Source: Defluviitaleaceae bacterium
Lineage (GTDB): Bacteria; Bacillota; Clostridia; Lachnospirales; WRAX01
DNA length: 44,542 bases
Assembly (NCBI GenBank): GCA_009780415.1
Contig: WRAC01000018.1
Span: 1 to 44,542 of the forward strand
Direction of reading: 5' to 3'
Below, piece by piece: positions 3,190 to 42,751 of the stretch (positions within the stretch are counted from its first letter, which is position 1; the number at the start of each line of letters is the position of its first letter). Position numbers and translations under genes: made by a program. Under the pieces are notes generated by a model that did not search any database, was not told the DNA's origin, and saw nothing but the letters and a program-made list of their open reading frames with translations.

Positions 3190-4027
3190 AATCACGATTG
3201 GGCGGATACTGCGGTTATTGGCGATTTCGGCTAAAATGGATCTTGTATGGCTTCTGCGCGACACAAAGTATGCAATACTTGGCATCGCGGGCGATATGGT
3301 CAACAACGTCGCTACGGTGTCCGGGGTGTTCCTGATAGCGTCGCGGTTTGGCGGGATCGGCGGCATGAGCGCCGACGAAGTTATGTTTATGATGGCGTAT
3401 TCCACGCTGGTTACCGGTATCTTCATCATGTTCGGCGCGGGTAACAGCATCCACATCAGCCGTATTATCGGGCGCGGACAGCTTGAGCATTTGTTTATCC
3501 AGCCCCTGCCTTTGGGGGTTCAGCTCATGACCCGCGGCTTCAACCCGTTCACGGGCGGCGGCAACCTGGTTGTCGGAACCGCGCTGATGGCGTTAGCGGT
3601 AAACCGTTTGGGACTTGTTATCACGCTTTGGTGGATTGCGCAATTGATTGCCTACCTGATCACCACTATGGTTATCATCATCGCACGTTCGTACCTTGTA
3701 TCCAGCATGGCGTTCTACGCGCCCGCCGCCGCCGAGGAGATTTCCAGCACCGCCATTGACGGCACGTGGTTTATGAGTACGTTCCCGCTGTCGGGAATGC
3801 CTAAATATATACAATTTCCGATGCTGACTATACTGCCGGAGGGGCTTATGGCTTGGTTCCCGGCATTATGCTTGCTGGGCAAGCCGCCGCTAAACCTGAC
3901 CGCGTATTACCCGATGTTTTTCGCGCTGGCGATATCGCTGGCGGCGAGTTATATTTTCAAGAAAGGACTAAGACACTATGTTCAAAAAGGCTCAAACAGA
4001 TATTTATCACACGGATTCCGCCGTTAG
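3179..4027 (+). CDS. ABC-2 type exporter permease, subunit 2
   Basis: A 282-residue membrane protein and second permease of the exporter. The segment with RIIGRGQLEHLFIQPLP followed by a Gly-rich PFTGGGN loop resembles ABC-2 permeases whose cytoplasmic gate region contacts the ATPase. Several hydrophobic helices follow. The ATG at 3179 lies inside the end of subunit 1, and its own 3' end overlaps the ATPase gene by 50 bases. The three genes are therefore tightly packed and probably translated as a unit. Confidence 0.8.
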   Translation: MADKITIGRILRLLAISAKMDLVWLLRDTKYAILGIAGDMVNNVATVSGVFLIASRFGGIGGMSADEVMFMMAYSTLVTGIFIMFGAGNSIHISRIIGRGQLEHLFIQPLPLGVQLMTRGFNPFTGGGNLVVGTALMALAVNRLGLVITLWWIAQLIAYLITTMVIIIARSYLVSSMAFYAPAAAEEISSTAIDGTWFMSTFPLSGMPKYIQFPMLTILPEGLMAWFPALCLLGKPPLNLTAYYPMFFALAISLAASYIFKKGLRHYVQKGSNRYLSHGFRR

Positions 4028-28691: not shown

Positions 28692-29226
28692 TAAATTTAC
28701 CGCCGCCTTTGTGTATAATAACGTTAGTAAATGCAACCTCAATAACAACATCACACAATTTTGCCAGATATTTGTCGATTCCGGCAAGCGATTCCCTGTA
28801 TTTCTCCGTAAGCGGGTCATAGATTACCGCATCGCTGTAGATATAATCGGAAACAATCACAATATCTTCAATATTCTTTAAAAGCTGCGAAAACCCGTTG
28901 ATTATTTTATCAGCCGCGTTTTCGTTTACAGAGCCATCAGGCAGGAACATTTCATTTGCCAAAAGAGCCGTAACGCTGTCCAGAAGAAAAGAGCCTCTTG
29001 AATCCGATTTATTCAAGATTTCCTCAATACACACAGGTTGTTCAATCGTTAAGAATCCCCAATTTTCTCGCTCAGCCCGATGCCTTACTATACGCTCGTC
29101 ATCCTCGCTGTCAACAGGCTTCATTGTTGCAACATAGTACAAAAACCCCATATTCTGTGCTTTTGCTAAGTGCTGCGCGTAGAATGACTTTCCGTTTTTG
29201 CAGCCTCCCGAAACAAAAATCCTCAT
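28666..29226 (-). CDS. cobU: adenosylcobinamide kinase/guanylyltransferase
   Basis: A 186-residue enzyme that phosphorylates adenosylcobinamide and then transfers GMP to it. SGGCKNGKS is the P-loop; YVATMKPVDSEDDERIVRHRAERENW carries the region of the guanylylated His; LLDSVTALLANEM is the next conserved strand. The C-terminal part differs from canonical CobU (VSDYIYSDAV in place of VSNEVG). The start overlaps the cobT stop as ATGA. Confidence 0.87.
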   Translation of the reverse strand: MRIFVSGGCKNGKSFYAQHLAKAQNMGFLYYVATMKPVDSEDDERIVRHRAERENWGFLTIEQPVCIEEILNKSDSRGSFLLDSVTALLANEMFLPDGSVNENAADKIINGFSQLLKNIEDIVIVSDYIYSDAVIYDPLTEKYRESLAGIDKYLAKLCDVVIEVAFTNVIIHKGGGKFNELYKTLS

Positions 29227-30329
29227 TCCCCTATACCCCTTGAAACGGTAAAATTATCACCGCCCTTAACCTCGTTTACATATTCCTCACCGATTGCCGC
29301 CTGCTCAAAAGTTCCCATGTTTTTTATCATAGCGCAAGCCGCGTCAATTACCGCGAACATGATGGGGCAGCCGCTCCCTTCCCCAAGCCGCATGCTTAAA
29401 TTCAAACACGGTTCAATTCCAAGCGCTTTTGCCGCGTGAGAAAATCCTTGCTCATATGAAGCATGGGAAGCAATCATATAATCCTTTGCCAAGGGGCAAA
29501 TCCTTGCGGCCGCAAGAGCCGCGACCATTGAGATAAACCCGTCGATAACAACAGGAACGCGCATCACGGCACCGCCGATATAAACACCGGCGAGGGCCGC
29601 TATGTCAAATCCGCCAACTTTGGCGAGAACGCCTATGGGATCCGAAGGATCAGGCTTGTTATTCAACACAGCCATCCGCACCACTTCAACCTTGCGTTTA
29701 TATGCGTCTTCCCTAAGCCCCGCGCCTTTTCCGGCGGCTTGCTCGGCAGGTATTCCAGTCAATGCGCATAAAACCGCGGCTGACGTTGTTGTATTTCCAA
29801 TGCCCATCTCACCCGCGCCTATGAGCTTATATCCGTTCTTAACCGTTTCCATGGCAATTTCAATGCCGGTAAGAATAGCTTGCTCAGCTTCATCGCGGGT
29901 CATGGCGTCCCCTTTTGCGATATTAAAAGTAGATTTCCGGATTTTCTTATTATTAATAAGGGGATGGTTAATATCCGCGTTTACGCCCATATCAACCACA
30001 ATCAAATCGGCGTTAAACTGCTTCGCCAAAACGGAAACGCCCGTGATTCCCTTCAAAAAATTGAGCGTCATCATATGCGTTACCGATTGCGGCGCGCTCG
30101 CCACGCCCTCATCAACAACGCCGTTATCCGAAGCCATGATAACCACGCAGCGTTTGCTTACGTCATAAATCATTTCGCCGCCGATGCCTGTCAATTGTAC
30201 GGCTATTTCTTCCAATTTACCCAAGCTCCCCGGAGGCTTTACCAAGCCGTCAACCCTTACCCGCGCTTTTTCCATTGCCAAGGTGTCAAGCCCTTTAACT
30301 TGCGATATGTACGTATCTAACATCTTCAA
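29223..30329 (-). CDS. cobT: nicotinate-nucleotide-dimethylbenzimidazole phosphoribosyltransferase
   Basis: A 368-residue enzyme activating the lower-ligand base (such as dimethylbenzimidazole) to its ribotide. KPPGSLGKLEEIA at the N-terminus, GEMGIGNTTTSAAVL in the middle and the catalytic-Glu motif RLGEGSGCPIMF at the C-terminus are all present. The start is TTG at 30329, with GGGGAGGG at good spacing; an ATG six bases later is an alternative. It is the first gene after the riboswitch and terminator. Confidence 0.93.
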   Translation of the reverse strand: MKMLDTYISQVKGLDTLAMEKARVRVDGLVKPPGSLGKLEEIAVQLTGIGGEMIYDVSKRCVVIMASDNGVVDEGVASAPQSVTHMMTLNFLKGITGVSVLAKQFNADLIVVDMGVNADINHPLINNKKIRKSTFNIAKGDAMTRDEAEQAILTGIEIAMETVKNGYKLIGAGEMGIGNTTTSAAVLCALTGIPAEQAAGKGAGLREDAYKRKVEVVRMAVLNNKPDPSDPIGVLAKVGGFDIAALAGVYIGGAVMRVPVVIDGFISMVAALAAARICPLAKDYMIASHASYEQGFSHAAKALGIEPCLNLSMRLGEGSGCPIMFAVIDAACAMIKNMGTFEQAAIGEEYVNEVKGGDNFTVSRGIGE

Positions 30330-30504: not shown

Positions 30505-30705
30505 ATACGGTGCAAAACCGCAAAATGAGGCAGGTCTTCCGACTTAGACTTAACCTGGGAATTCGCCTTCTCAAACATCAACTCATTCAATGGCTTTTGA
30601 ATTCCCAGTCTCTAGATTCTTATACCTAGATTGTCAACACGGCAGCAGGACTGTTCAGGATTCCAACCTGATTCCCTATTATCGCGTATATAATACGCGC
30701 ACCTT
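30505..30705 (-). promoter_or_regulatory. cobalamin riboswitch
   Basis: Read on the minus strand, the aptamer begins AATAGGGAATCAGGTTGG and AATCCTGAACAGTCCTG, matching the conserved 5' half of the B12 riboswitch. The hallmark AGTCGGAAGACCTGCC follows near the 3' end. A closing P1 helix pairs GGTGC (30699-30703) with GCACC (30509-30513). With the terminator downstream it would shut off the cobT operon when adenosylcobalamin-type ligand is abundant. It belongs to the set with the classical GGTG/AATCC core. Confidence 0.9.
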
Positions 30706-30722
30706 CATTTATTATTCGACTA

Positions 30723-30886: not shown

Positions 30887-30951
30887 TTGACAAAAATGAC
30901 AGTTTGGATTAATATTGAAAATATTACTATACACGTTAGCTAAACATGTTT
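30887..30951 (+). promoter_or_regulatory. promoter and palindromic candidate operator of sugar importer operon
   Basis: TTGACA (30887-30892), a 17-bp spacer and TAATAT (30910-30915). About 27 bases downstream of the -10 box is the perfect palindrome AAACATGTTT (30942-30951), preceded by GTTAGCTAAAC. These are possible repressor sites for the LacI-type protein encoded at 37620, but this is inference. Confidence 0.55.
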
Positions 30952-30974
30952 CGTTAAGCGGAGGGCGGCGGCAT

Positions 30975-31898
30975 ATGCGTACGGGTAAGAAAAAATCCTA
31001 CTGGAAGATTTTTTTGAAGAACAAGGAGCTGCTTTTATTAACACTGCCTGCGCTTGTCTATTTTGCCGTTTTCCACTATCTGCCTATGGGCGGAATTTAT
31101 ATAGCTTTTACAAACTACAGGTTTGTTGACGGTATCTTTGGCAGCGAATTCGTTGGTCTAAGGTGGTTCCGTATTTTTTTCCAGGGCGATCTCTTCCGCG
31201 TAACAAGGAATACTGTTTTGTACAGTATGGCCTTTATCGTTTTATCATTGGTAACAGCCGTATTTACCGCCATTCTGATGAGCGGTCTGAAAAGCAGAAA
31301 AGGAGTAAAGGTCTATCAAACCACCATGATCCTGCCTAATTTCATGTCGTGGATTGTCGTATCCCTTGTGCTTTATGTTTTCCTAGACCCCGCTTACGGT
31401 TTTATCAACAGCATCCACCTCTCGTTGGGATATGAGGACATAAATTGGTACGCAAATCCCGGTTACTGGCCGTTTATCCTTACTTTTATGAACATATGGA
31501 AGAGCGTGGGAATGGGATGCGTCATGTATTACGCCGCCATGATGGGCATCGACCCCTCCCTGTACGAGGCCGCCACTATTGACGGCGCCGGAAAAATGGG
31601 GAGGCTGCGCTACATAACCCTTCCCGCGCTGGTACCGCTTATGACGATATTGACGATCCTTGCCATGGGCAACTTGTTCCGGGGCGATTTCGGGCTGTTC
31701 TTTTCGCTGCCCCGCGATGTGGGTATGCTCTATTCCACTACGGATGTGCTGGACACTTATATTTTCCGGGGCCTGCGGGCCGGCAGGTTCAGCCTGAACA
31801 CGGCGGCGGGCCTGTTGCAATCGGTGATGGGTTTTATAATGGTTGTTGTCACTAACCTTATCGTTAAAAAAATAAACCCGGAAAATTCATTATTTTAA
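30975..31898 (+). CDS. carbohydrate ABC importer permease (LplB-like)
   Basis: A 307-residue MalF-type permease with six hydrophobic segments. The EAA loop is YEAATIDGAGKMGRLRYITLPALVP near the C-terminal third, the contact for the ATPase. FLKNKELLLLTLPALVYFAVFHYLPMGGIYIAF at the N-terminus is typical of the polysaccharide permease LplB/YteP group. I chose the ATG at 30975 after GGAGGGCGG. No ATPase gene is present; such importers commonly share a genomic MsmK-type ATPase. Confidence 0.88.
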   Translation: MRTGKKKSYWKIFLKNKELLLLTLPALVYFAVFHYLPMGGIYIAFTNYRFVDGIFGSEFVGLRWFRIFFQGDLFRVTRNTVLYSMAFIVLSLVTAVFTAILMSGLKSRKGVKVYQTTMILPNFMSWIVVSLVLYVFLDPAYGFINSIHLSLGYEDINWYANPGYWPFILTFMNIWKSVGMGCVMYYAAMMGIDPSLYEAATIDGAGKMGRLRYITLPALVPLMTILTILAMGNLFRGDFGLFFSLPRDVGMLYSTTDVLDTYIFRGLRAGRFSLNTAAGLLQSVMGFIMVVVTNLIVKKINPENSLF

Positions 31899-31945: not shown

Positions 31946-32839
31946 ATGGTCGAAAACAAAAAGCAAGCCAGAGTAGAGCAAATCCTTCTAAACGGTTATT
32001 TTTTCATCTGCTGCCTGTTTTTTGTTATACCCATGCTGCTGGTTATAACCTCCTCCTTTACCAATGACAACGAAATCAGGTTGTATGGCTATTCGCTTTT
32101 ACCGCGTGAGTGGTCGCTGGAATCGTACAGGGCCATCTTCAGGATACCGCAGAGGATGTTTGACGCGTACATAATCACCGCTTTTACTTCTATCGTAGGC
32201 ACAATTATGTCGGTAACCGTTATGGCTCTGGTGGCCTATCCCCTATCCCGCCGGGATTTCGCGTACCGCAAAGCCATCACATTCTTCATCTTCTTCACTT
32301 TACTTTTCAGCGGCGGCCTTATTCCCAGCTATATCATGAATACGCAAATCTTGAAATTGGATGACACTATATGGATTTATCTGCTGCTGCACCTGGCAAA
32401 CGCGTGGCATATAATCATCATTCGCACGTTCTTCCAGCAGCTTCCTTACGAACTGATTGAATCCGCAAAAATGGACGGCGCGAAGGAGCTTCGGATTTTC
32501 TTTGCCATTATAGTCCCGTTATCCAAACCGGTGCTTGCCACAATCGCCCTTTTCGTCCTGCTGGGCAGATGGAACGAATGGATGATCACGCTGGTATATA
32601 TACGCAGCGAAAGGCTGTATACCTTGCAGTTTATATTGCAACGGCTCCTTTTACAGGCCGAGTTCGCCAGGAGCTATATGCTGAACGTACCGGGCATTAT
32701 GATCGATTCCCGCGCGCTGCCCACGCTAAGCATGCGTTACGCCATGACCGTTATCGCGGCCGGCCCCATGCTGCTTGTATTCCCCTTCTTCCAGAAATAT
32801 TTTACCAGAGGCCTAACCATCGGCGCCATTAAAGGCTGA
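31946..32839 (+). CDS. carbohydrate ABC importer permease (LplC/YtcP-like)
   Basis: A 297-residue MalG-type partner permease. The EAA loop is ELIESAKMDGAKELRIFFAIIVPLSKP. The C-terminus FFQKYFTRGLTIGAIKG is highly typical of the LplC/YtcP group. The ATG at 31946 follows ACAGGAGGAAT. It forms the membrane channel together with the preceding protein. Confidence 0.9.
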   Translation: MVENKKQARVEQILLNGYFFICCLFFVIPMLLVITSSFTNDNEIRLYGYSLLPREWSLESYRAIFRIPQRMFDAYIITAFTSIVGTIMSVTVMALVAYPLSRRDFAYRKAITFFIFFTLLFSGGLIPSYIMNTQILKLDDTIWIYLLLHLANAWHIIIIRTFFQQLPYELIESAKMDGAKELRIFFAIIVPLSKPVLATIALFVLLGRWNEWMITLVYIRSERLYTLQFILQRLLLQAEFARSYMLNVPGIMIDSRALPTLSMRYAMTVIAAGPMLLVFPFFQKYFTRGLTIGAIKG

Positions 32840-32892: not shown

Positions 32893-34482
32893 ATGCGTAT
32901 CAAAAAACTGCTCGGTATCGCGCTCGCCCTTGTGTTCGTGTTCTCGCTTGCCGCGTGCGCTGCGGAGAACAATCCGGCCGCCGGCTTTGGCGACGATGTT
33001 GTCGTTCTCAGATGGCTGCAGGGCGGCGACAACACCCCGGACAGCGCCCAGGTATGGGCCGCGGTAAACGAGGCATTGCAGGAATTTCTGCCGGGCACCG
33101 TTTTAGACATAACCGTCATCCCCTTTGGCGAGTACGAGCAGCGCTTTCAATTGGAAGCGGCTGCCGGCGGGCAATGGGACATTGCGTGGTTCGGATGGAT
33201 GCTGCATCTGTCGAACGAAGTCGCTAACGGCGCGCTGATGCCCATGAACGATTTGATTGACCGTTACGGGCAGAATTTACGCGAGGAACTGCCCTCGTTT
33301 ATGTTTGACTGTAACACCATAGACGGCAATATATACTTAATCGCCAACAACCAAGTGGCCGCAAGGCCCGCAGGCGGATTTTTCGCCCCGAAGGAGCTGG
33401 CCGACCTGTATTTGGATGCCGCGGCTTTTGAGCGGGCAGCACAGGCATGGGCCGCATCCGATCAAATATTTGCGCCAGACGATTTTCTGGATGTAATTGA
33501 GGATTACGCGCAACAATGCCTGGACGCCGGAAGAATTATGTTGGGTATGAACATCCATTATTTTGTCGGTAACACAAGCGCCAGAAATATCTGGTTCAAC
33601 AGCAGGATAGGCGACAGAGTCGAGCATTTGGGCGGGTTTGCCAAAGCCCACGACCCAGCCAGCGCAATCTATAACTACAGTGACATCGTCGAAGAGGAAA
33701 TCGCCTACTTCGAGCGCATCAGAAGCTGGAACGAAAAAGGCTTTATCCGCAGGGACGCGCTGACCGTCGATGATTGGCAGATTGATTTCGATAATTTCCC
33801 CCAAGGCAACGGATATATTTTCCGCACTTTCAACTACGACGTATTCCAAGCCGAGACGCAAAGCGCGCGCCACGGCTTCGAGGTTATCGCCCTTCCCTAC
33901 CTGTACCCCATGGCTCCCACCAGCGCCAATCCCACCGCAACCTCCCAAAGCATTATGCACGGCGCGCGTAACCCCGAACGCGCCATGCAGTTCCTGAACT
34001 TATTAAATTCCGCGGAAGGCGCTTACATCTACAACATGCTTGCTTACGGCATTGAAGGCATCCATTGGGATTATACGGACAGGGAAAACGGCATTATTGA
34101 GACTTACGATTACGCAGGCGGGCACGCTACCGGCGGCGACGTATCCTATGCGCTTCCCAGATGGGCCATAGGCAACACCCGTTACGCGTATGCCACACAG
34201 GGCGTAGATCCCGGGTATGACAGGTACATGACCGGCGTATTCAACTTTGAAGCCATGCCCATGCCCCTTTCCGGTTTCGTATTCAACAGTTCCGCCGTAA
34301 TAGCGGAAGTCGCCGCGGTTACCGACATTGTACAGGAGTACGAACAAGGCCTGATGTACGGTATGTACTCCGATGTCCGCGCCACTATTTTGGAACGCAA
34401 CGCCCGCTTGGACGCTGCCGGCGGCCAGAGGATCAAAGAAGAGATTCAGAGGCAAGTTGATGCGTTTTTAACTAATAGGTAA
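32893..34482 (+). CDS. carbohydrate ABC importer substrate-binding lipoprotein (LplA-like)
   Basis: A 529-residue lipoprotein with signal peptide and lipobox LAAC at about residues 18-21. VVLRWLQGGDN, GEYEQRFQLEAAAGGQWDIAWFGWM and the C-terminal segments resemble family-1 solute-binding proteins of the LplA/DUF3502 type, which bind oligosaccharides. The ATG at 32893 follows AAAGGAGAGAG. It completes the importer with the two permeases upstream. Confidence 0.87.
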   Translation: MRIKKLLGIALALVFVFSLAACAAENNPAAGFGDDVVVLRWLQGGDNTPDSAQVWAAVNEALQEFLPGTVLDITVIPFGEYEQRFQLEAAAGGQWDIAWFGWMLHLSNEVANGALMPMNDLIDRYGQNLREELPSFMFDCNTIDGNIYLIANNQVAARPAGGFFAPKELADLYLDAAAFERAAQAWAASDQIFAPDDFLDVIEDYAQQCLDAGRIMLGMNIHYFVGNTSARNIWFNSRIGDRVEHLGGFAKAHDPASAIYNYSDIVEEEIAYFERIRSWNEKGFIRRDALTVDDWQIDFDNFPQGNGYIFRTFNYDVFQAETQSARHGFEVIALPYLYPMAPTSANPTATSQSIMHGARNPERAMQFLNLLNSAEGAYIYNMLAYGIEGIHWDYTDRENGIIETYDYAGGHATGGDVSYALPRWAIGNTRYAYATQGVDPGYDRYMTGVFNFEAMPMPLSGFVFNSSAVIAEVAAVTDIVQEYEQGLMYGMYSDVRATILERNARLDAAGGQRIKEEIQRQVDAFLTNR

Positions 34483-34576: not shown

Positions 34577-36412
34577 ATGAACAGCTGGTTTAAGAAAGCA
34601 AAAGTAGGTTTATTTATACATTTCGGGATAAATACCGGGAATATGAAGTATCATGAAAAAATAATGCAATACGAGACTTTTGACGCATTTGAAAAAGCCG
34701 TGAACGATGGCGGCTGGAACGCTGAGAAATGGGTGGATGCCGCGCGGAAAATGCGAGCCTCATACATTACATTCGCGATTTTCCATAGCTGCCTGGGTTA
34801 TATTAAAGCGTGGAAGTCCAATATTCCGGGAACATACACAACCAAACGGGATTTTTTAGGGGAATTAATTGAGGAAGCAAATAAATATGACATTAAAGTA
34901 ATTCTTTACATAAGCGGCGACACCACCGGTAATAAGTTCTTTGCGGAACAGCCGTGGATTTTTCCTGATGAGTACGCCGAGTATAAAAATGATTCAAGTG
35001 TTGATATTTCAACCGACCGGCACTGGCAGAGTATTTATTGCAAGGATATTATAGGCGAGGTTATTGATAATTATCCTGATTTGGCGGGGTTTTGGTTTGA
35101 TGGCTGGAACAACCTTGAAACAAACGAAATGCTGTTTAGCTTTATCCACAGCAAAAACCCCGCGTTACTTACTATGAGGAATAATTTTGGCGACCAGCCC
35201 GGGCCTGGCGAAGATGTAATGAGCATAGAATGCTTTGGCAAAAAGCTGGATCCGCCCTTCGACTACGCTTCGGGCGCGTGGCATCCGCCCGGAAACAAGG
35301 AATATTGCTACGTCATCCCCGGATTAAGCGACTGGTACCAGATATATGAACCCGGCGAGTACGATAAAAACAACGCGATCCGGAATTTTATATCGGTCAT
35401 TACGAACGGATGGGCGGCGCACATCGGCTTAGGTCCCGATATCGGCGGTAATTTCAACGGTTCAATGGGGGAATTTATTAATGAGTTTGATAATTTCCTG
35501 ACATGGGCCGGTGAGTCGGTTTTCGATACCGCAGCGGGCGGCCTTGAAACGGGGCATTTGAACGGCGGAGCCTACGCCTTAGCCTGCCAAAAAGACAACG
35601 CGGTATACATCCACGTTCTTCTCCCGCCAAAAGGTAATGTGCTTATCATAAAAGACGGCGGCAGAATATATTCCGAAGCGATTAATATAAGAACGGGACA
35701 AAGCGTCCCATTTTCACAAAAAGAAGGCTTGCTGCATATAGCCGGCGAATTCCGCAGGCATTGCGACGAAGACGGGGACACAGTCATCAAATTAGTCATA
35801 AACCGCAGTGGCGAACCTTGCGTTTACCCGAATCCGTGCAAGCATGAGGTTCAACAATACATGCAGCCGCTGCCCGCAGACATCGTCATTCAAACAGATA
35901 AACCCGTACAAGGCATTTTACTGCATCAGGACGATACATCGGCCATCACAAAAGGCGGCTGGGCGGCCCCTCACAACAACCGCGCCAAGGATTATTCTTT
36001 ATATACAAGCGACGACGGTATATGTTATACTCTGTTTCAACAAGGGCAGTTAAGCGGGGCCAGGGGAATTAAACAAATAAGCCTGCCCGGAATAAAAACG
36101 GCATTTATTAAGCTCCGCATTGAAACAGCCTTTGATACCTCAGATGGCTTAATAGGAAAATTCATAAACGGGGCATGGGAATACCGCAATAGTGGGGGCG
36201 AACAGCCCAAATCAGAGGTAATAATAGAAGGGCAAAGGCACATACGCGATGAGCAAGGCCGCGTATGCGTCTGGGGAGCGGAAGGCAACAATGTATATAT
36301 TATAGGCAGGGGCGCGGAAGGCGTTGCGGCAGACACGGACGGCAAGCTCCTTGCCGTTATGCCGCCCGAAAAAGGCAGACTGAGGATTTCACATATTTCT
36401 ATAATCACGTAA
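34577..36412 (+). CDS. GH29 alpha-L-fucosidase-like protein
   Basis: A 611-residue glycoside hydrolase. GLFIHFGINTG at the N-terminus and the nucleophile-type motif GFWFDGW (Asp) in the first third match GH29 enzymes, which retain configuration and release alpha-L-fucose. The C-terminal part, with GIKQISLPGIKTAFIKLRIE, looks like a beta-sandwich (discoidin-like) domain. No signal peptide is seen, so it would act in the cytoplasm on imported oligosaccharides. The ATG at 34577 follows AGAGGATT. Specificity for fucose is inferred only from family resemblance. Confidence 0.75.
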   Translation: MNSWFKKAKVGLFIHFGINTGNMKYHEKIMQYETFDAFEKAVNDGGWNAEKWVDAARKMRASYITFAIFHSCLGYIKAWKSNIPGTYTTKRDFLGELIEEANKYDIKVILYISGDTTGNKFFAEQPWIFPDEYAEYKNDSSVDISTDRHWQSIYCKDIIGEVIDNYPDLAGFWFDGWNNLETNEMLFSFIHSKNPALLTMRNNFGDQPGPGEDVMSIECFGKKLDPPFDYASGAWHPPGNKEYCYVIPGLSDWYQIYEPGEYDKNNAIRNFISVITNGWAAHIGLGPDIGGNFNGSMGEFINEFDNFLTWAGESVFDTAAGGLETGHLNGGAYALACQKDNAVYIHVLLPPKGNVLIIKDGGRIYSEAINIRTGQSVPFSQKEGLLHIAGEFRRHCDEDGDTVIKLVINRSGEPCVYPNPCKHEVQQYMQPLPADIVIQTDKPVQGILLHQDDTSAITKGGWAAPHNNRAKDYSLYTSDDGICYTLFQQGQLSGARGIKQISLPGIKTAFIKLRIETAFDTSDGLIGKFINGAWEYRNSGGEQPKSEVIIEGQRHIRDEQGRVCVWGAEGNNVYIIGRGAEGVAADTDGKLLAVMPPEKGRLRISHISIIT

Positions 36413-36449: not shown

Positions 36450-37616
36450 ATGTCAGACGCTGTGTTAAAACAATTTACACCGGGATTGCCGGATAAGCAG
36501 GATATTGACATGGGTAAAACTCTCCGTGTAGGAATAATCGGGACGGGTTGGATCGCGGAGTACTACATTGAAGACTTAAAGCAAATGCCGGATATTGCAA
36601 TTGTATCAGGCGCTGACCTTATACCCGGGAAAGCGGATGCGTTTTTTAAGCGTTTTAAGGCAGAAGGCGCCCGTACTTATAACCATCATCTTGAAATGCT
36701 GGAGAACGAGGAGCTTGACGCCGTTTGCGTCTGCACATACAACACAACCCACGCGGAATGCACAATTGACGCGCTGAACAAAGGCGTACACGTGCTGCTG
36801 GAAAAACCGATGTGCGTAACAATTCAGGAAGCGGCGGATATCCTAGCGGCGGAAAAAAGATCCGGCAAGCTGCTTTCCCTTGGCTTTCAGCCGCGCATGG
36901 ATGAAAATGTGAAGATGATAAAAAAAATCGTCGAATCCGGCGAGCTGGGAAAAGTTTATTATATCCAAACCGGCGGCGGCAGGCGGCGCGGCATACCCAA
37001 CAGCACCTTCATCGAGAAAAAGACGGCCGGTGTCGGCGCGCTGGGGGATATAGGCTGTTATTCGCTGGATATGGTGCTTTATGCCATCGGATATCCCAAG
37101 CCTTTGACGGTTTCCGGCTATACCTCCGCTTTTTTTGGCGCGAACCCTAAATATAATAACCCGCAAGACGCTGCGCGTTTTAATGTGGACGATTTCGCCG
37201 CGGCGTTCATCCGGCTGGAAGGTGATATTGTGCTGGATTTCCGCATTTCGTGGGCATCGCATATCGACACGCCGGGGGATACAATTATTATGGGGACTGA
37301 GGCGGCTTTGCGCATACCTTCAACGGAATGCTGGAACGGGGGCTTTACCGCGCCCATGAAGCTATATAAAGATGTGGCGGGCGAGCAAGTGGAGATGGAG
37401 ATCCCGCTCCGTATGGAAAAACCGGGCGGAAAGGGTTTATTTTACAAAAAGATACGGGCCTTTGCCGACGCGGTAAAAAGTAATACGCAGCCGCCGGTGC
37501 CTTCTAAAGAGATTTTCATTAACCAGGCGATAATTGACGCAATCGTAACGTCCGCCCGGTTAAAACGCGAGCTCGAAGTGGTTTTGCCTGTTGAGGTTTT
37601 AGAAGGGGTTTTGTAG
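36450..37616 (+). CDS. Gfo/Idh/MocA family oxidoreductase (second)
   Basis: A 388-residue NAD(P)-dependent sugar dehydrogenase. RVGIIGTGWIAEYYI is the Rossmann loop and LLEKPMCVTIQEA the catalytic-Lys EKP motif; GALGDIGCYSLDM is the substrate-domain signature. I kept the ATG at 36450, after AGGGGGC, although the conserved region only starts 24 residues later and an ATG at 36510 is possible. It probably oxidises a sugar freed by the fucosidase-like enzyme. It shares only the family with the 6275 gene. Confidence 0.87.
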   Translation: MSDAVLKQFTPGLPDKQDIDMGKTLRVGIIGTGWIAEYYIEDLKQMPDIAIVSGADLIPGKADAFFKRFKAEGARTYNHHLEMLENEELDAVCVCTYNTTHAECTIDALNKGVHVLLEKPMCVTIQEAADILAAEKRSGKLLSLGFQPRMDENVKMIKKIVESGELGKVYYIQTGGGRRRGIPNSTFIEKKTAGVGALGDIGCYSLDMVLYAIGYPKPLTVSGYTSAFFGANPKYNNPQDAARFNVDDFAAAFIRLEGDIVLDFRISWASHIDTPGDTIIMGTEAALRIPSTECWNGGFTAPMKLYKDVAGEQVEMEIPLRMEKPGGKGLFYKKIRAFADAVKSNTQPPVPSKEIFINQAIIDAIVTSARLKRELEVVLPVEVLEGVL

Positions 37617-37619
37617 GTT

Positions 37620-39539
37620 ATGAACATAAGGGAATTAGCTAAAATTGCCAATGTGTCGCCAACCACGATTTCAAAAGTAATTAATCATAAAGCAAATGAT
37701 ATCAGTGAAGTGACAAAAAAGCGCATTTGGGATGTAGTAAGGGAATACAACTACGTCCCTTATCAAAATGTAATCAATAGTTTGGAAGCCAACGGGCGCT
37801 TAATCGGAATGCTGGTATCCGATATCGACGCTATGCATGCGCAAATAATAAAAGGCGCGGAGAAAGCCGCCTTTGAAAATGATTTTGAAATCGTTATCTG
37901 CAAGATAGGCGAACAAGCCAGTATGTTGGAAAACCGGCTGAATTCTCTCAGAAGGAAGAAAGCGGAAGGTGTTATCCTTAGCCGGACAAAGTCTTTTGGG
38001 CTGGAAATATTGGAATCGCTGGCAAGGGAGAATTATCCGGTGCGTATTCTGGAATATTATGTCAGCTATCATACCGCCGTACATCAGGCGTATAAAGAAC
38101 TCATTGACAAAGGGCATAAAAAGATAGGCCTGATTACTTCCGATTTAAAGCGTACGGACACGCAAAAAAAACTGGACGCATATAAAAACGCGGTGTTAAA
38201 GGAAAATCGGAGTTACGATATAAGTTTGGTATACGAAACTGACGGCACTTCCGAATCAAGCGGCTTGGGCATGAAATACCTTTTATCCATGGATGTATCG
38301 GCGGTACTGGCTTTTGACGATGTAATCGCTTCAGGCATATATCATCTCTTGCAAAAAGAGGCATTGCGCGTACCGCAGGATATCTCGGTTTTATGCTTCG
38401 GCGGTTATGGCGTATATCCTTATCTTTTCCCCGAACCCGCAGTGATAAAGACAGCTTATGATGAAATTGGATACCGGGCGGTGCTGGATTTGATTCATGA
38501 GGCCAGCGGTTCTTCGCCGCCCAATGCCGGAGGTGCTATCGAGGCAACCGTGTATTGGGGAGCGGGCATTGCGGCGTGCCATACCGGTCAAGGCAAGTCC
38601 GGCGGAAAGATCCTGGTAATTGGCTATTTAAATATGGATACGATTATTTATACGCCGGGTGAAGCGGACGGGCGCAATAACGCCGATATAAACGCAAGCG
38701 ACGTGCAGATTATGCCGGGCGGGAAGGCGTCGCTTCAATCCGCCACGGTGGCCAGGCTTGGTGGGAACTGTTATGTGCTGGGCCGTGTGGGCAGCGACTT
38801 AAACGGCGAGAAGATCCAAAACGAGCTTTCTAAAATGAATATAAAAACAGGCGGAATCATTTTTGATGAAAACAACCCCACCGGAAAAGCTATTATTTAT
38901 GTGCCAAAAACAGGGAAGACCAGTTTCGATATTGAGCCTGGGGCCAATGTATATCTTTCGGGGCGGGATATTGAGCGGTACATTGATTTGTTCAGCGACG
39001 CGGCATTCTGCCTGATACCCACCGAAGTACCCCGCGATATCTTTTATTATGCCGCGCGTATTTGCAAGCAAAAAAGCGTGAAGCTTATCAGCAGCATTAA
39101 TCCAGCCTTTGAATTGGATGCAAACCCTATCGGCGCGTATGTATTAATATCAAGCTTGCTCAACATTGACATCCTCGTACCCGGCAGAGGCAGCTTGCAG
39201 AAGAAAGTTAATAAATTACTGGAACACCATTGCGAGAATATAATAATCACGCTGGAAGACGAGGGGCAATGCATTTTAATACATAAAAAGCAATGGACCA
39301 GGTTTGTGGCCGCGGATTTCGTTTTTATGAGTCATACGGCCGGCATAGACTGTTTTTGCGGCGCGCTGGCTGTCGCGCTGACGGAAGGGAAGACATTGCC
39401 GGAAGCCACCCGTTACGCGTTAACGGGCGCGATACTGACCATGTCACGGAAAGGCTCCCTTCCCGCAATTCCGACGGCGGAGGAGATTATTGAAAACCTG
39501 GACAGAATAAGTGAAAAAGAATATTGCCAAGTACATTAA
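37620..39539 (+). CDS. LacI-family regulator fused to PfkB-type (ribokinase-like) domain
   Basis: A 639-residue fusion. Residues 1-50 are a LacI helix-turn-helix (IRELAKIANVSPTTISKVINH). Residues 60-320 are a periplasmic-binding-protein-like sensor (ISVLCFGGYGVYPYLFPEP). Residues 330-632 are a PfkB sugar-kinase fold: VIGYLNMDTIIYTP, PGGKASLQSATVARLGG at 366-382, and AGIDCFCGALAVAL with the catalytic-type Asp577. The kinase motifs are eroded: GGKGAN reads GGKASL, the ATP-site TLG reads TLED, and the anion-hole GxGD reads AGID. It may serve as a second sugar sensor. It follows the dehydrogenase gene by three bases. Confidence 0.87.
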   Translation: MNIRELAKIANVSPTTISKVINHKANDISEVTKKRIWDVVREYNYVPYQNVINSLEANGRLIGMLVSDIDAMHAQIIKGAEKAAFENDFEIVICKIGEQASMLENRLNSLRRKKAEGVILSRTKSFGLEILESLARENYPVRILEYYVSYHTAVHQAYKELIDKGHKKIGLITSDLKRTDTQKKLDAYKNAVLKENRSYDISLVYETDGTSESSGLGMKYLLSMDVSAVLAFDDVIASGIYHLLQKEALRVPQDISVLCFGGYGVYPYLFPEPAVIKTAYDEIGYRAVLDLIHEASGSSPPNAGGAIEATVYWGAGIAACHTGQGKSGGKILVIGYLNMDTIIYTPGEADGRNNADINASDVQIMPGGKASLQSATVARLGGNCYVLGRVGSDLNGEKIQNELSKMNIKTGGIIFDENNPTGKAIIYVPKTGKTSFDIEPGANVYLSGRDIERYIDLFSDAAFCLIPTEVPRDIFYYAARICKQKSVKLISSINPAFELDANPIGAYVLISSLLNIDILVPGRGSLQKKVNKLLEHHCENIIITLEDEGQCILIHKKQWTRFVAADFVFMSHTAGIDCFCGALAVALTEGKTLPEATRYALTGAILTMSRKGSLPAIPTAEEIIENLDRISEKEYCQVH

Positions 39540-39640: not shown

Positions 39641-40492
39641 TTATCCTTTTAGCGCGCCAAGCACCAGGCTGCTCTGGACTTTTTTACTTAGGGCGAAATA
39701 AATAGCAAGCGTCGGTATAGTCGCTACGGTAAGCCCGGCCCCAATGGGACCCCAATTTGTGCGGTATTGCCCTGTCATGCTCATAATTCCAACTGTAAGC
39801 GTCCTGAAACGCCCGTCGGTAATGTAGACGCTTGCAAACAGCAGCTCGTTCCAGCATTGCAAAAACGTAAAGATTGATACAACCGATATGGCGGGTGCCA
39901 TTAACGGCATAATAATCCTTATAAAAATGCCATAGACCGAGCAGCCGTCAAGGCAGGCCGATTCCTCAAGCTCATTGGGTATCCCGTTGATAAACCCAAT
40001 GAATATTAATATCGACATAGACAGCGCGAACCCCGAATACGGCAGAATTAAGGCCCAGTGACTGTTCAGCATCCTCATGTTCCTTAAAACAAGAAAAATT
40101 GGCAGCAATGCCGCGTGAATGGGGAGAGCAAGTCCCAGCATGAAATAACTCCTCATCACGCCGCGTCCCCGCCAAACCATGCGTGTAATTGCGTAGGTCG
40201 CCATCAGCCCGCATATGGTTACAATAGTAATTGTGACCGCGGAAACAATAAGGCTGTTCGCAAGATACCGCAGCATGTTCGCGTTTTGGATAACGTCCCG
40301 GTAGTTCTCCCACAGCCAGTCCCTGGGCAGGCCGATTGGGTTATCCACAAAAATTTCCTGATTGCTCTTTAACGAAAAAGAAAACATCCAATACAATGGA
40401 AATATTTGAATAAACGCCCATATTAAAAGAAAAATGTATAGCCCTGCCTTCGCTGTCCGCCTTAACGCTGTTTTTAATTTGGCATCACTCAT
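39641..40492 (-). CDS. carbohydrate ABC importer permease (MalG-like)
   Basis: A 283-residue permease with six hydrophobic segments. The EAA loop reads ELEESACLDGCSVYGIFIRIIMPLMAP. The C-terminus ending VQSSLVLGALKG is typical. The ATG at 40492 overlaps the end of the partner permease gene by eight bases; a longer frame to 40546 would lie inside that gene. It belongs to the family-1 importer with the genes at 40485-42751. Confidence 0.88.
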   Translation of the reverse strand: MSDAKLKTALRRTAKAGLYIFLLIWAFIQIFPLYWMFSFSLKSNQEIFVDNPIGLPRDWLWENYRDVIQNANMLRYLANSLIVSAVTITIVTICGLMATYAITRMVWRGRGVMRSYFMLGLALPIHAALLPIFLVLRNMRMLNSHWALILPYSGFALSMSILIFIGFINGIPNELEESACLDGCSVYGIFIRIIMPLMAPAISVVSIFTFLQCWNELLFASVYITDGRFRTLTVGIMSMTGQYRTNWGPIGAGLTVATIPTLAIYFALSKKVQSSLVLGALKG

Positions 40493-41402
40493 AACGAACC
40501 TTGCCTTTCCGGTTTTTATCCCTGTCACGAAAGATATGCGCGACAAATTGATAAAGGATGACGCACATCAGAATTAATATGATTGCCATCGCGCTGCCGT
40601 AACCATAGCGGTTCGAAGGGTAGAACATCCTTCTGACCATCAGTGTAGTGATAACTTCTCCCGAACCGGACGGGCCGCCGTCGGTCAGCATTACCCTCAC
40701 CAAATCGAACACCTTCATCGAGCCTACCACGCAGAAAGTCAGGCTGACTTGCAAAACCGGCTTTAATAACGGTATGGTAATTTTAAAAGCCGTCTGCCAG
40801 AACCCCGCTCCGTCAATCCGCGCCGCTTCGTATATTTCAGGCGGCAATGATTTTATCCCCGAATAGTACAAAAGCATATGATATCCGACATACTGCCAAA
40901 GTATCGGCACCAAAACCGCCCCAAGCGCCGTATTTACATCGCCAAGCCATGCCGTTGGCCTTGTTGGGTCCATAAAACCAAGATTTATAAGCAGCGTGTT
41001 CAGCAAGCCCCCGCGCGGGAAATATATCCGCATCCAGAGTTGGCCGATAACGACTGCCGAGAGTATGACGGGGATGAAATAAACCGTAATAAAGAAACGT
41101 TCGCCTTTTACCTTTGAAGCCAATATCAGCGCCAACAGCAGCGCAAGGGGCAGCTGGATGAAAACGGACGCCGCCGCGATAATAAATGTATGGTAAACGG
41201 CGGGTAAAAACCTGTCCCTGTCCGTTAAAAGCTCTATGTAATTGCTAAAACCTATGAAGGTCTGCCTCCCGATACCGTTCCAATCAAGGGTGCTGTAATA
41301 AATAGACATAACCACAGGCACAATTATTATTAGTGTAAACAACATAAAAGCAGGAAGGATAAATATCGCGGCGGCTTTTTTATCTCTCATTACCCGTTCC
41401 AT
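40485..41402 (-). CDS. carbohydrate ABC importer permease (MalF-like)
   Basis: A permease of about 305 residues. IFILPAFMLFTLIIIVPVVMSIYYSTLDWNGIG forms the first helix and loop, and the EAA loop is EIYEAARIDGAGFWQTAFKITIPLLKP. The start is uncertain: ATG at 41402 (AGGAT 12 bases upstream) or GTG at 41414. A stable hairpin separates it from the binding-protein gene, so its expression may be lower. It forms the channel with the MalG-like protein. Confidence 0.87.
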   Translation of the reverse strand: MERVMRDKKAAAIFILPAFMLFTLIIIVPVVMSIYYSTLDWNGIGRQTFIGFSNYIELLTDRDRFLPAVYHTFIIAAASVFIQLPLALLLALILASKVKGERFFITVYFIPVILSAVVIGQLWMRIYFPRGGLLNTLLINLGFMDPTRPTAWLGDVNTALGAVLVPILWQYVGYHMLLYYSGIKSLPPEIYEAARIDGAGFWQTAFKITIPLLKPVLQVSLTFCVVGSMKVFDLVRVMLTDGGPSGSGEVITTLMVRRMFYPSNRYGYGSAMAIILILMCVILYQFVAHIFRDRDKNRKGKVRYE

Positions 41403-41428
41403 ATAAATACTCACATCCTGATAGAATT

Positions 41429-41453
41429 AGCGCCGGGAATTAATCCCGGCGCT
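41429..41453 (-). terminator. intra-operon hairpin between binding protein and permease
   Basis: AGCGCCGGGA (41429-41438), loop ATTAA and TCCCGGCGCT (41444-41453) form a perfect 10-bp stem with no good T-run. Such hairpins behind binding-protein genes commonly protect the upstream mRNA or reduce read-through, giving more binding protein than permease. Confidence 0.6.
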
Positions 41454-41479
41454 TACTGGTTTTATTGATTTGCAATTAG

Positions 41480-42751
41480 TTACGGATGAATCTTCTTCAG
41501 CTCTTCATGGAACTGTTCGGCGGTTATAGTGCCGTTTACGAATCTGTCGAGGGCATCCTGGTATATCGTAACGTCGTCGCCGTCAAGGAAGGTGTCCCAC
41601 CAGATGACGTAGTCGGTAGCATTTTCGGTAGCCTCGATAATTCTGGCGAACACGGCGGGGCGGATAGCCATGTCTATCTCAACGGTATTCCACACGGGCA
41701 TATAATCGCCTTCCCGCGAAAGGTTTTCGGTAAAATACTTTACGAATGCGGCGGCGGCTTCGGGATGTGCGGTATTGGCACTTACGACAAGCCCGTCGAT
41801 AGCGCCGCCGTTAAAGTCGGTCGGGGCGCCTTTTCCGCCGGGGATAGTCGGGAAGGGTATCCAGTCGACATTACCTTTTATTAATGAGCTGTCGTCCTCC
41901 AACGCGGAACATTCCCACGAACCCATGTAATACAGGCCCGCGTCGCCGTTAATAAAGCTTGCCAGCGCTTCATCACGGGTCAGCGCGGCACGGTCCGAGT
42001 TGATAAAGCCGTTGTCAATTAACTCTCCCAAACGATTAATGGCTTCCAGGAACAATGGATCGGAATATCCTCCATCGGCTTCCTTGTTTATCGTAGCGTT
42101 GACTTTGCTTGCGCCAACGGCCTTTGTCACCATGCCTTCAAACAACATGCCTATAACCCAGCGCTCCCTGCTTGATGTCATTATCGGGATTTTGCCGCTT
42201 GCAAGTATTTTTTCGCTGGCTTCAACAAGCTCTTCCCATGTGGCGGGAATTTCTGCGCCCGCATCTTCAAACACTTTTGTGTTAACAAAAAAACCGCTGA
42301 CGTTTCTGCCGATAGTAAGCCCGTACACGCTGTCGTCGTAAATAAAGTAATTCAGCGCGCCGCCGTACAGCTTGTCAAGAGTGCCGTCGTTAAGGTATTC
42401 ATCAAGGTTAAGGAGTTTACCCGCTTCATAAAACGGACGGGAGAAGCCGGCGCCCCAAGTCGAAAACACATCAGCGACCTCATCCCCTGCAACGGCTGTC
42501 CTGATCATTGTTTTATAAGCTTCATTCTCGAAATACTCAACTACCACCCTTACACCGGGATGGCTGGCGTTGAAATCGTTAATAACCTTCCTGACGGCCT
42601 CGTGGTTAGCATCGCCGCCGCCCCAAATATTCCAAAACCGGAGCACTATATCGCCGTCAGTGCCCTCATCGCCCCCGCTCAAGCATCCTGTCATAACAGA
42701 AATGCACATGAGCGCCGCCAGTAAAATAGAAAAAACACGTTTAAGTTTCAT
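41480..42751 (-). CDS. carbohydrate ABC importer substrate-binding lipoprotein (MalE-like)
   Basis: A 423-residue lipoprotein with signal peptide and lipobox MTGC at about 19-22. VLRFWNIWGGGDANHEAVRKVINDFNASHPGVRVVVEYFENEAYKTMIRTAVAGDEVADVF is the standard N-terminal lobe of family-1 sugar-binding proteins. YYMGSWECSAL is the typical hinge-side strand. The ATG at 42751 follows AGGAGGAAAA. It is the first gene of this operon and unrelated in detail to the 32893 binding protein. Confidence 0.9.
   Translation of the reverse strand: MKLKRVFSILLAALMCISVMTGCLSGGDEGTDGDIVLRFWNIWGGGDANHEAVRKVINDFNASHPGVRVVVEYFENEAYKTMIRTAVAGDEVADVFSTWGAGFSRPFYEAGKLLNLDEYLNDGTLDKLYGGALNYFIYDDSVYGLTIGRNVSGFFVNTKVFEDAGAEIPATWEELVEASEKILASGKIPIMTSSRERWVIGMLFEGMVTKAVGASKVNATINKEADGGYSDPLFLEAINRLGELIDNGFINSDRAALTRDEALASFINGDAGLYYMGSWECSALEDDSSLIKGNVDWIPFPTIPGGKGAPTDFNGGAIDGLVVSANTAHPEAAAAFVKYFTENLSREGDYMPVWNTVEIDMAIRPAVFARIIEATENATDYVIWWDTFLDGDDVTIYQDALDRFVNGTITAEQFHEELKKIHP

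Follow-up and report, generated by a model that had tools for sequence, protein, structure and literature searches.

A LacI repressor carrying an eroded PfkB domain in a Defluviitaleaceae bacterium, compared with its ortholog and with the wider family of LacI-PfkB fusions

In the ROK repressors NagC and Mlc, a fold resembling that of sugar kinases is joined to an HTH and serves as a non-catalytic sensor. The protein described here differs from them in that its kinase fold belongs to another kinase superfamily, and in that the kinase fold of the ROK repressors is their only sensor. LacI repressors of the RbsR type (9ny7, 9ny8; NF047341) likewise consist of an HTH and a sugar-binding core and control sugar catabolism, which the present protein probably does from inside its own operon; in contrast to RbsR, it adds a kinase-fold domain of 300 amino acids and scores far below the equivalog cut-off. 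Yeast Gal3p and the plant proteins FLN1 and FLN2 are kinase-like proteins with regulatory roles, and FLN1 is a PfkB-type subunit of the plastid RNA polymerase complex (PMC3409070, PMC4036507). As in the protein studied here, sugar-kinase folds have been recruited to transcription control in Gal3p and FLN1; however, Gal3p, FLN1 and FLN2 are separate proteins with no fused DNA-binding repressor, and Gal3p retains ATP binding. Gal3p, FLN1 and the ROK repressors are the nearest functional parallels, none of them being a LacI fusion. Our literature searches returned no description of LacI-PfkB fusions, an absence which counts as weak evidence. The other LacI-PfkB fusions identified in this study share the architecture of the protein described here, but their motifs are mostly intact, whereas those of the present copy and of one ortholog are eroded.

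The fusion gene lies at 37620..39539 on the forward strand (+) of the window, by which we mean the whole stretch of DNA that was analysed, 44,542 nucleotides in length; it starts with ATG and encodes 639 amino acids. Pfam assigns residues 3-47 to a LacI HTH (37626..37760, +; 9.9e-12), residues 61-318 approximately to a periplasmic-binding-protein-like sensor core, here called the PBP core (37800..38573, +), with a Peripla_BP_3 match at residues 160-298 (4.4e-15), and residues 330-619 to a PfkB/ribokinase-fold domain (38607..39476, +; PF00294, 8.1e-27). The N-terminal part exceeds the cut-offs of PF00356, PF13377 and PF00532, and the PfkB domain reaches 94.8 bits against a Pfam cut-off of 25.8. 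These domains agree with the sequence-only reading, which had described a full DNA-binding and sugar-sensing repressor with a ribokinase-fold third domain, and the observation of a LacI repressor carrying an eroded PfkB domain is confirmed far beyond chance. Among the NCBIfam families, the N-terminal part matches RbsR best (NF047341, 130.6 bits, with the equivalog cut-off far above at 382 bits) and the third domain is nearest to ribokinase (TIGR02152, 152.1 bits, under the equivalog cut-off of 299.65); ribokinases are the closest characterised relatives of the third domain. The hinge-helix segment at 37761-37790 (residues 48-57) looks non-canonical and is modelled with a pLDDT under 50.

An AlphaFold2 model, run on 52 aligned fusions, has a mean pLDDT of 89.5 and a pTM of 0.62 and contains a well-folded PfkB domain, while the placement of the domains relative to one another is uncertain. 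Its best match in the PDB is the complex of E. coli ribokinase with ribose and ADP (1rkd), with a TM of 0.90 on the target length, and the RbsR structures 9ny7 and 9ny8 are also among the matches. Since the input alignment is rich in intact kinases, the retention of the fold in the model is partly a prior. The likeness to RbsK (1rkd; TIGR02152) thus covers the complete fold and five of the six sugar-contact residues, whereas the window domain is without NxxE, TLG, the anion hole, the K+-site Asp and N46.

We take the ribose contacts of E. coli RbsK to be D16, G42, K43, N46, E143 and D255, and its Asp249 to be a K+ ligand, the equivalent of which in the window protein is Ser571. The GGKGAN motif is replaced by GGKASL at residues 367-372 (38718..38735, +), in which the equivalent of Asn46 is Leu372 (Ile in the ortholog described below), the Mg/phosphate motif NxxE by SLLN at residues 512-515 in the motif table (39153..39164, +), and TLG by TLE at residues 544-546 (39249..39257, +; TQE in the ortholog). 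In place of DTTAAGD or DTTGAGD stands SHTAGID (39330..39350, +), with AGID at residues 574-577 where AAGD or GAGD would be expected, so that the K+-site Asp and the anion-hole Gly are lost and Asp577 is kept. The changes in GGKGAN, TLG and GxGD and the persistence of Asp577 had been noted before, and all four points hold; the loss of NxxE (to SLLN) and of the K+-site Asp (DTT to SHT) come in addition to that list. On the sugar side, the alignment to RbsK shows D340, G368, K369, E469 and D577 in place and N46 alone changed. Asp340 (38637..38639, +) is the retained equivalent of the ribose-contacting Asp16 and Glu469 (39024..39026, +) that of Glu143. The equivalents D340, G368, K369 and D577 are kept in the window copy and the ortholog alike; the ortholog, however, has Gln for E143, so that strict conservation does not extend to the whole sugar pocket, which may be relaxing as well. 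Judged by these residues, the domain has kept most of its sugar side but its nucleotide side is destroyed; the motifs indicate that it is no longer catalytic. In terms of sequence it has the features of a pseudokinase, namely a kinase fold, lost catalytic residues and a gene under selection, and it falls short of an active ribokinase in its TIGR02152 score and in the GGKGAN, NxxE, TLG and (G/A)xGD motifs. Three residues flanking Asp577, H572, C578 and C580 (39333-39359), are common to both eroded orthologs, whereas the remaining fusions lack them; their role could conceivably involve a metal or a thiol.

The retention of the catalytic-type Asp577 would also suit a domain that is still a kinase and works by an unusual mechanism or on another substrate. 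Many fusions tolerate A, S or C at the anion-hole Gly with their other motifs kept, and no further kinase gene came to light in the window operon, both of which speak in favour of such activity. Nevertheless, we regard it as very unlikely, as the domain has jointly lost N46, NxxE, the Gly of TLG, the Asp of the K+ site and the anion-hole Gly, a combination present in 0 of 68 stand-alone PfkBs.

An ortholog with 65% identity to the window fusion was found in a Defluviitaleaceae MAG (L054, = L037). The survey of motif decay in homologous fusions, which had been suggested along with the sequence-only reading, limits the joint loss of N46, NxxE, TLG and GxGD to these two among 85 readable fusions. 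The eroded subclade thus has two members, both apparently metagenome-assembled, and further class and phylum genome samples yielded no third one. Between the two, the HTH (residues 1-60) is 78% identical, the PBP core 66% and the PfkB domain 65%, with the N-terminal part of the PfkB domain conserved best within it (71%). The dN is 0.263 in the PBP core and 0.267 in the PfkB domain, and synonymous sites are saturated (pS 0.82-0.87). In a simple neutral simulation, one substitution per site left the PfkB segment with 17% identity and about 12 stops, and distances of 1-2 gave 8-17% identity with many stops. The window PfkB domain is under strong purifying selection.

These data bear on the question of whether the window copy is simply decaying, as a broken fusion heading for loss. 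All catalytic motifs are changed, and a long stem branch of 1.0-1.3 changes per site precedes the pair, both of which would be compatible with decay. However, the frame is intact, the ortholog has the same changes, and the PfkB domain diverges no faster than the PBP core at saturated synonymous sites. In addition, the stem branch of the pair measures 1.17 in the LacI tree and 1.0-1.28 (about 1.3) in the kinase trees, and since the LacI stem is equally long, the fast change before the split concerned the whole protein and was not kinase-specific. The earlier concern that homologues with intact motifs might reveal this copy as merely degenerate is therefore borne out as far as the existence of such homologues goes, of which there are about 80, but not in its conclusion, because a 65% identical ortholog shares the erosion and the PfkB domain is under purifying selection. 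Simple decay was rejected on the basis of the ortholog with its shared losses, the purifying selection and the neutral simulation, and we consider it highly improbable.

The replacements at the lost catalytic positions are often unlike between the orthologs (L/I, S/T, N/G, S/A) in a conserved surrounding fold, which is the pattern expected of a pseudoenzyme. The variability of these replacements (L/I, S/T, N/G), together with the loss of the nucleotide and catalytic sites, is also what a purely structural PfkB domain might display, one that would bind no ligand and serve oligomerisation or stability instead. The beta-clasp lid of ribokinases is a known dimer interface, and conservation within the domain is highest in its N-terminal part. 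A scaffold, on the other hand, would have no use for D340, G368, K369 and D577, which are kept in both copies, and we therefore consider a purely structural role rather unlikely.

Within the taxonomic family of the window itself, the nearest relatives (G006, G007) carry fusions that are 28% identical and have nearly intact motifs, and the genome of the ortholog belongs to another family of the window's order, so that the distribution of the eroded subclade is patchy. Transfer between lineages is a possible explanation.

The fusion gene is the last of an operon on the forward strand (+) that comprises two ABC sugar permeases (30975..31898 and 31946..32839), an extracellular solute-binding protein (SBP_bac_1 / DUF3502; 32893..34482), a GH29 alpha-L-fucosidase-like hydrolase (34577..36412), a Gfo/Idh/MocA sugar dehydrogenase (36450..37616) and the fusion, which starts 3 nt after the dehydrogenase stop codon. 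The first permease probably starts at the ATG at 30975, which follows GGAGG; the start listed for it, 30915, is mechanical. The hydrolase and the dehydrogenase have homologues in the ortholog operon with 57% and 66% identity, respectively. The GH29 hydrolase only suggests L-fucose or a fucoside as the sugar of the operon, in which few neighbouring genes are annotated by family. Upstream of the ortholog operon (L054 1448-3944) lie an MtaA/CmuA-like methyltransferase and another fucosidase-like protein, neither of which occurs in the window operon. Immediately downstream of the fusion, at 39641-42751 on the reverse strand (-), the window contains a second, convergent operon for an ABC sugar transporter with two permeases and a solute-binding protein. 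On the other side, a Cobalamin riboswitch (RF00174, 75.9 bits) was found at 30512-30721 (-), just upstream of a cobT-like gene (29223-30329, -).

A promoter of the sigma-70 type precedes the window operon at 30887..30915 (+), with TTGACA and TAATAT at a spacing of 17 nt (10/12 matches), and the ortholog operon has TTGACA-17-TATACT at 3972-4000. The putative operator GCTAAACATGTTTCGTT, with the palindromic core AAACATGTTT, is located at 30939..30955 (+) and starts 24 nt after the -10 box. The 13-bp palindrome GCTAAACATGTTT is common to both operons and lies at 4018-4030 in L054, 18 nt after the -10 box; with a trailing NRTT, it is the sole zero-mismatch site in each of the two genomes. Because the palindrome counted alone, with two mismatches allowed, is no rarer than chance, the case for an operator lies in the two operons having an exactly matching sequence in the same position. 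On the strength of its position and of one ortholog, GCTAAACATGTTT is probably the operator. A point against this assignment is that classical LacI operators have a CG centre, unlike the palindrome in the window, which has an AT centre; this may go together with the non-canonical hinge-helix segment.

LacI-PfkB fusions form a broad family centred on the Clostridia. An order-level search of 392 genomes found 33 with a profile match at 1e-80, and in 18 of these the match was full-length within a single uninterrupted frame. Among bacterial and archaeal species genomes, a scan gave 80 loci, most of them fusions, from Lachnospiraceae, Oscillospiraceae and other groups. Further members occur in Spirochaetota, Synergistota (Synergistaceae) and Myxococcota, and Enterococcus raffinosus carries a LacI-PfkB fusion on a megaplasmid; a scan of viral contigs found no relatives. 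In the LacI-domain tree, all 26 sampled fusions including that of the window fall on one side of a branch with a support of 99.4. The kinase-domain tree places the window pair just outside the main fused group, and a single origin was not rejected by the AU test on a 46-row subset of the 150-row tree (p-AU 0.45). The sampled LacI-PfkB fusions therefore apparently go back to one fusion event, as far as these trees indicate. An obvious source for it is provided by separate lacI and ribokinase genes, which adjoin in 22 fetched loci, with lacI first in 21 of them and gaps of 3-67 nt.

In the other fusions, GGKGxN, NxxE, DTT and mostly TLG are kept, and most depart from kinases only at the anion-hole Gly: 98-100% of them retain N372, N512, E515 and D571 (window numbering), and 92% the TLG glycine. 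The anion-hole Gly is present in 13 of the 85 readable fusions, with the duplicate row of the window counted once, and is otherwise A (53), S (12), C (5), I (1) or V (1). It is kept in all 68 stand-alone PfkBs from the fetched loci and, in a separate control sample, in 28 of 28 stand-alone PfkBs whose motif could be read by pattern. Since five changes suffice on the kinase tree, the contrast of 13/85 with 68/68 represents few events and is a lineage trait. Two fusions (L056, L073) have GAAN for GxGD and have lost the catalytic Asp itself with their other motifs kept. Of 75 fusion loci, 26 have a separate PfkB gene no more than 400 bp away, and 41 have one anywhere in the fetched stretch. Two such neighbours were scanned (L055, L060) and reach 361 and 367 bits, above the ribokinase cut-off of 299.65. 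By comparison, the scores of nine other fused domains against TIGR02152 range over 239-298 bits, and that of the eroded ortholog is 153; at loci with a neighbouring kinase, the fused domain is thus unlikely to be the pathway kinase. A supposed lack of nearby kinases in Gly-keeping fusions was dropped, as Fisher's test gave p = 0.24 and no independent pairs supported the link.

Taken as a whole, we consider it reasonably probable that the window protein is a LacI/RbsR-type repressor of its own operon, derived from an rbsR-rbsK fusion, in which the PfkB domain is a non-phosphorylating second module. Neighbouring rbsR and rbsK genes would have fused in an ancestor, and the resulting protein would bind the palindrome at 30939-30955 and repress its own sugar-catabolic operon. 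The sugar would enter through the ABC importer and be sensed by the PBP core, while the pseudokinase domain would most likely bind a sugar and thereby tune DNA binding, or otherwise serve dimer or tetramer assembly through the ribokinase beta-clasp. The two-ligand sensor proposed in the sequence-only reading survives in so far as the inactive-looking PfkB domain is plausibly a second ligand-binding or regulatory domain. A reading of the nucleotide state by this copy, which had also been proposed, does not, with NxxE, TLG, the anion hole and the K+-site Asp gone: nucleotide sensing is disfavoured because the ATP/Mg side is lost and the sugar side mostly kept. It fits the other fusions better, since NxxE and TLG are retained there at 92-99%.

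For the family, we tentatively suggest, with rather less confidence, that LacI-PfkB fusions are two-input repressors in which a captured ribokinase has become a sensor, the window lineage being the fully non-catalytic end point. The fused and the stand-alone ribokinase of one locus are directly comparable by standard biochemistry. If the suggestion is true, these fusions would illustrate clearly, for bacteria, how the repressor of a metabolic enzyme captured that enzyme and converted it stepwise into a non-catalytic sensor, with intermediate stages that would persist in living genomes.
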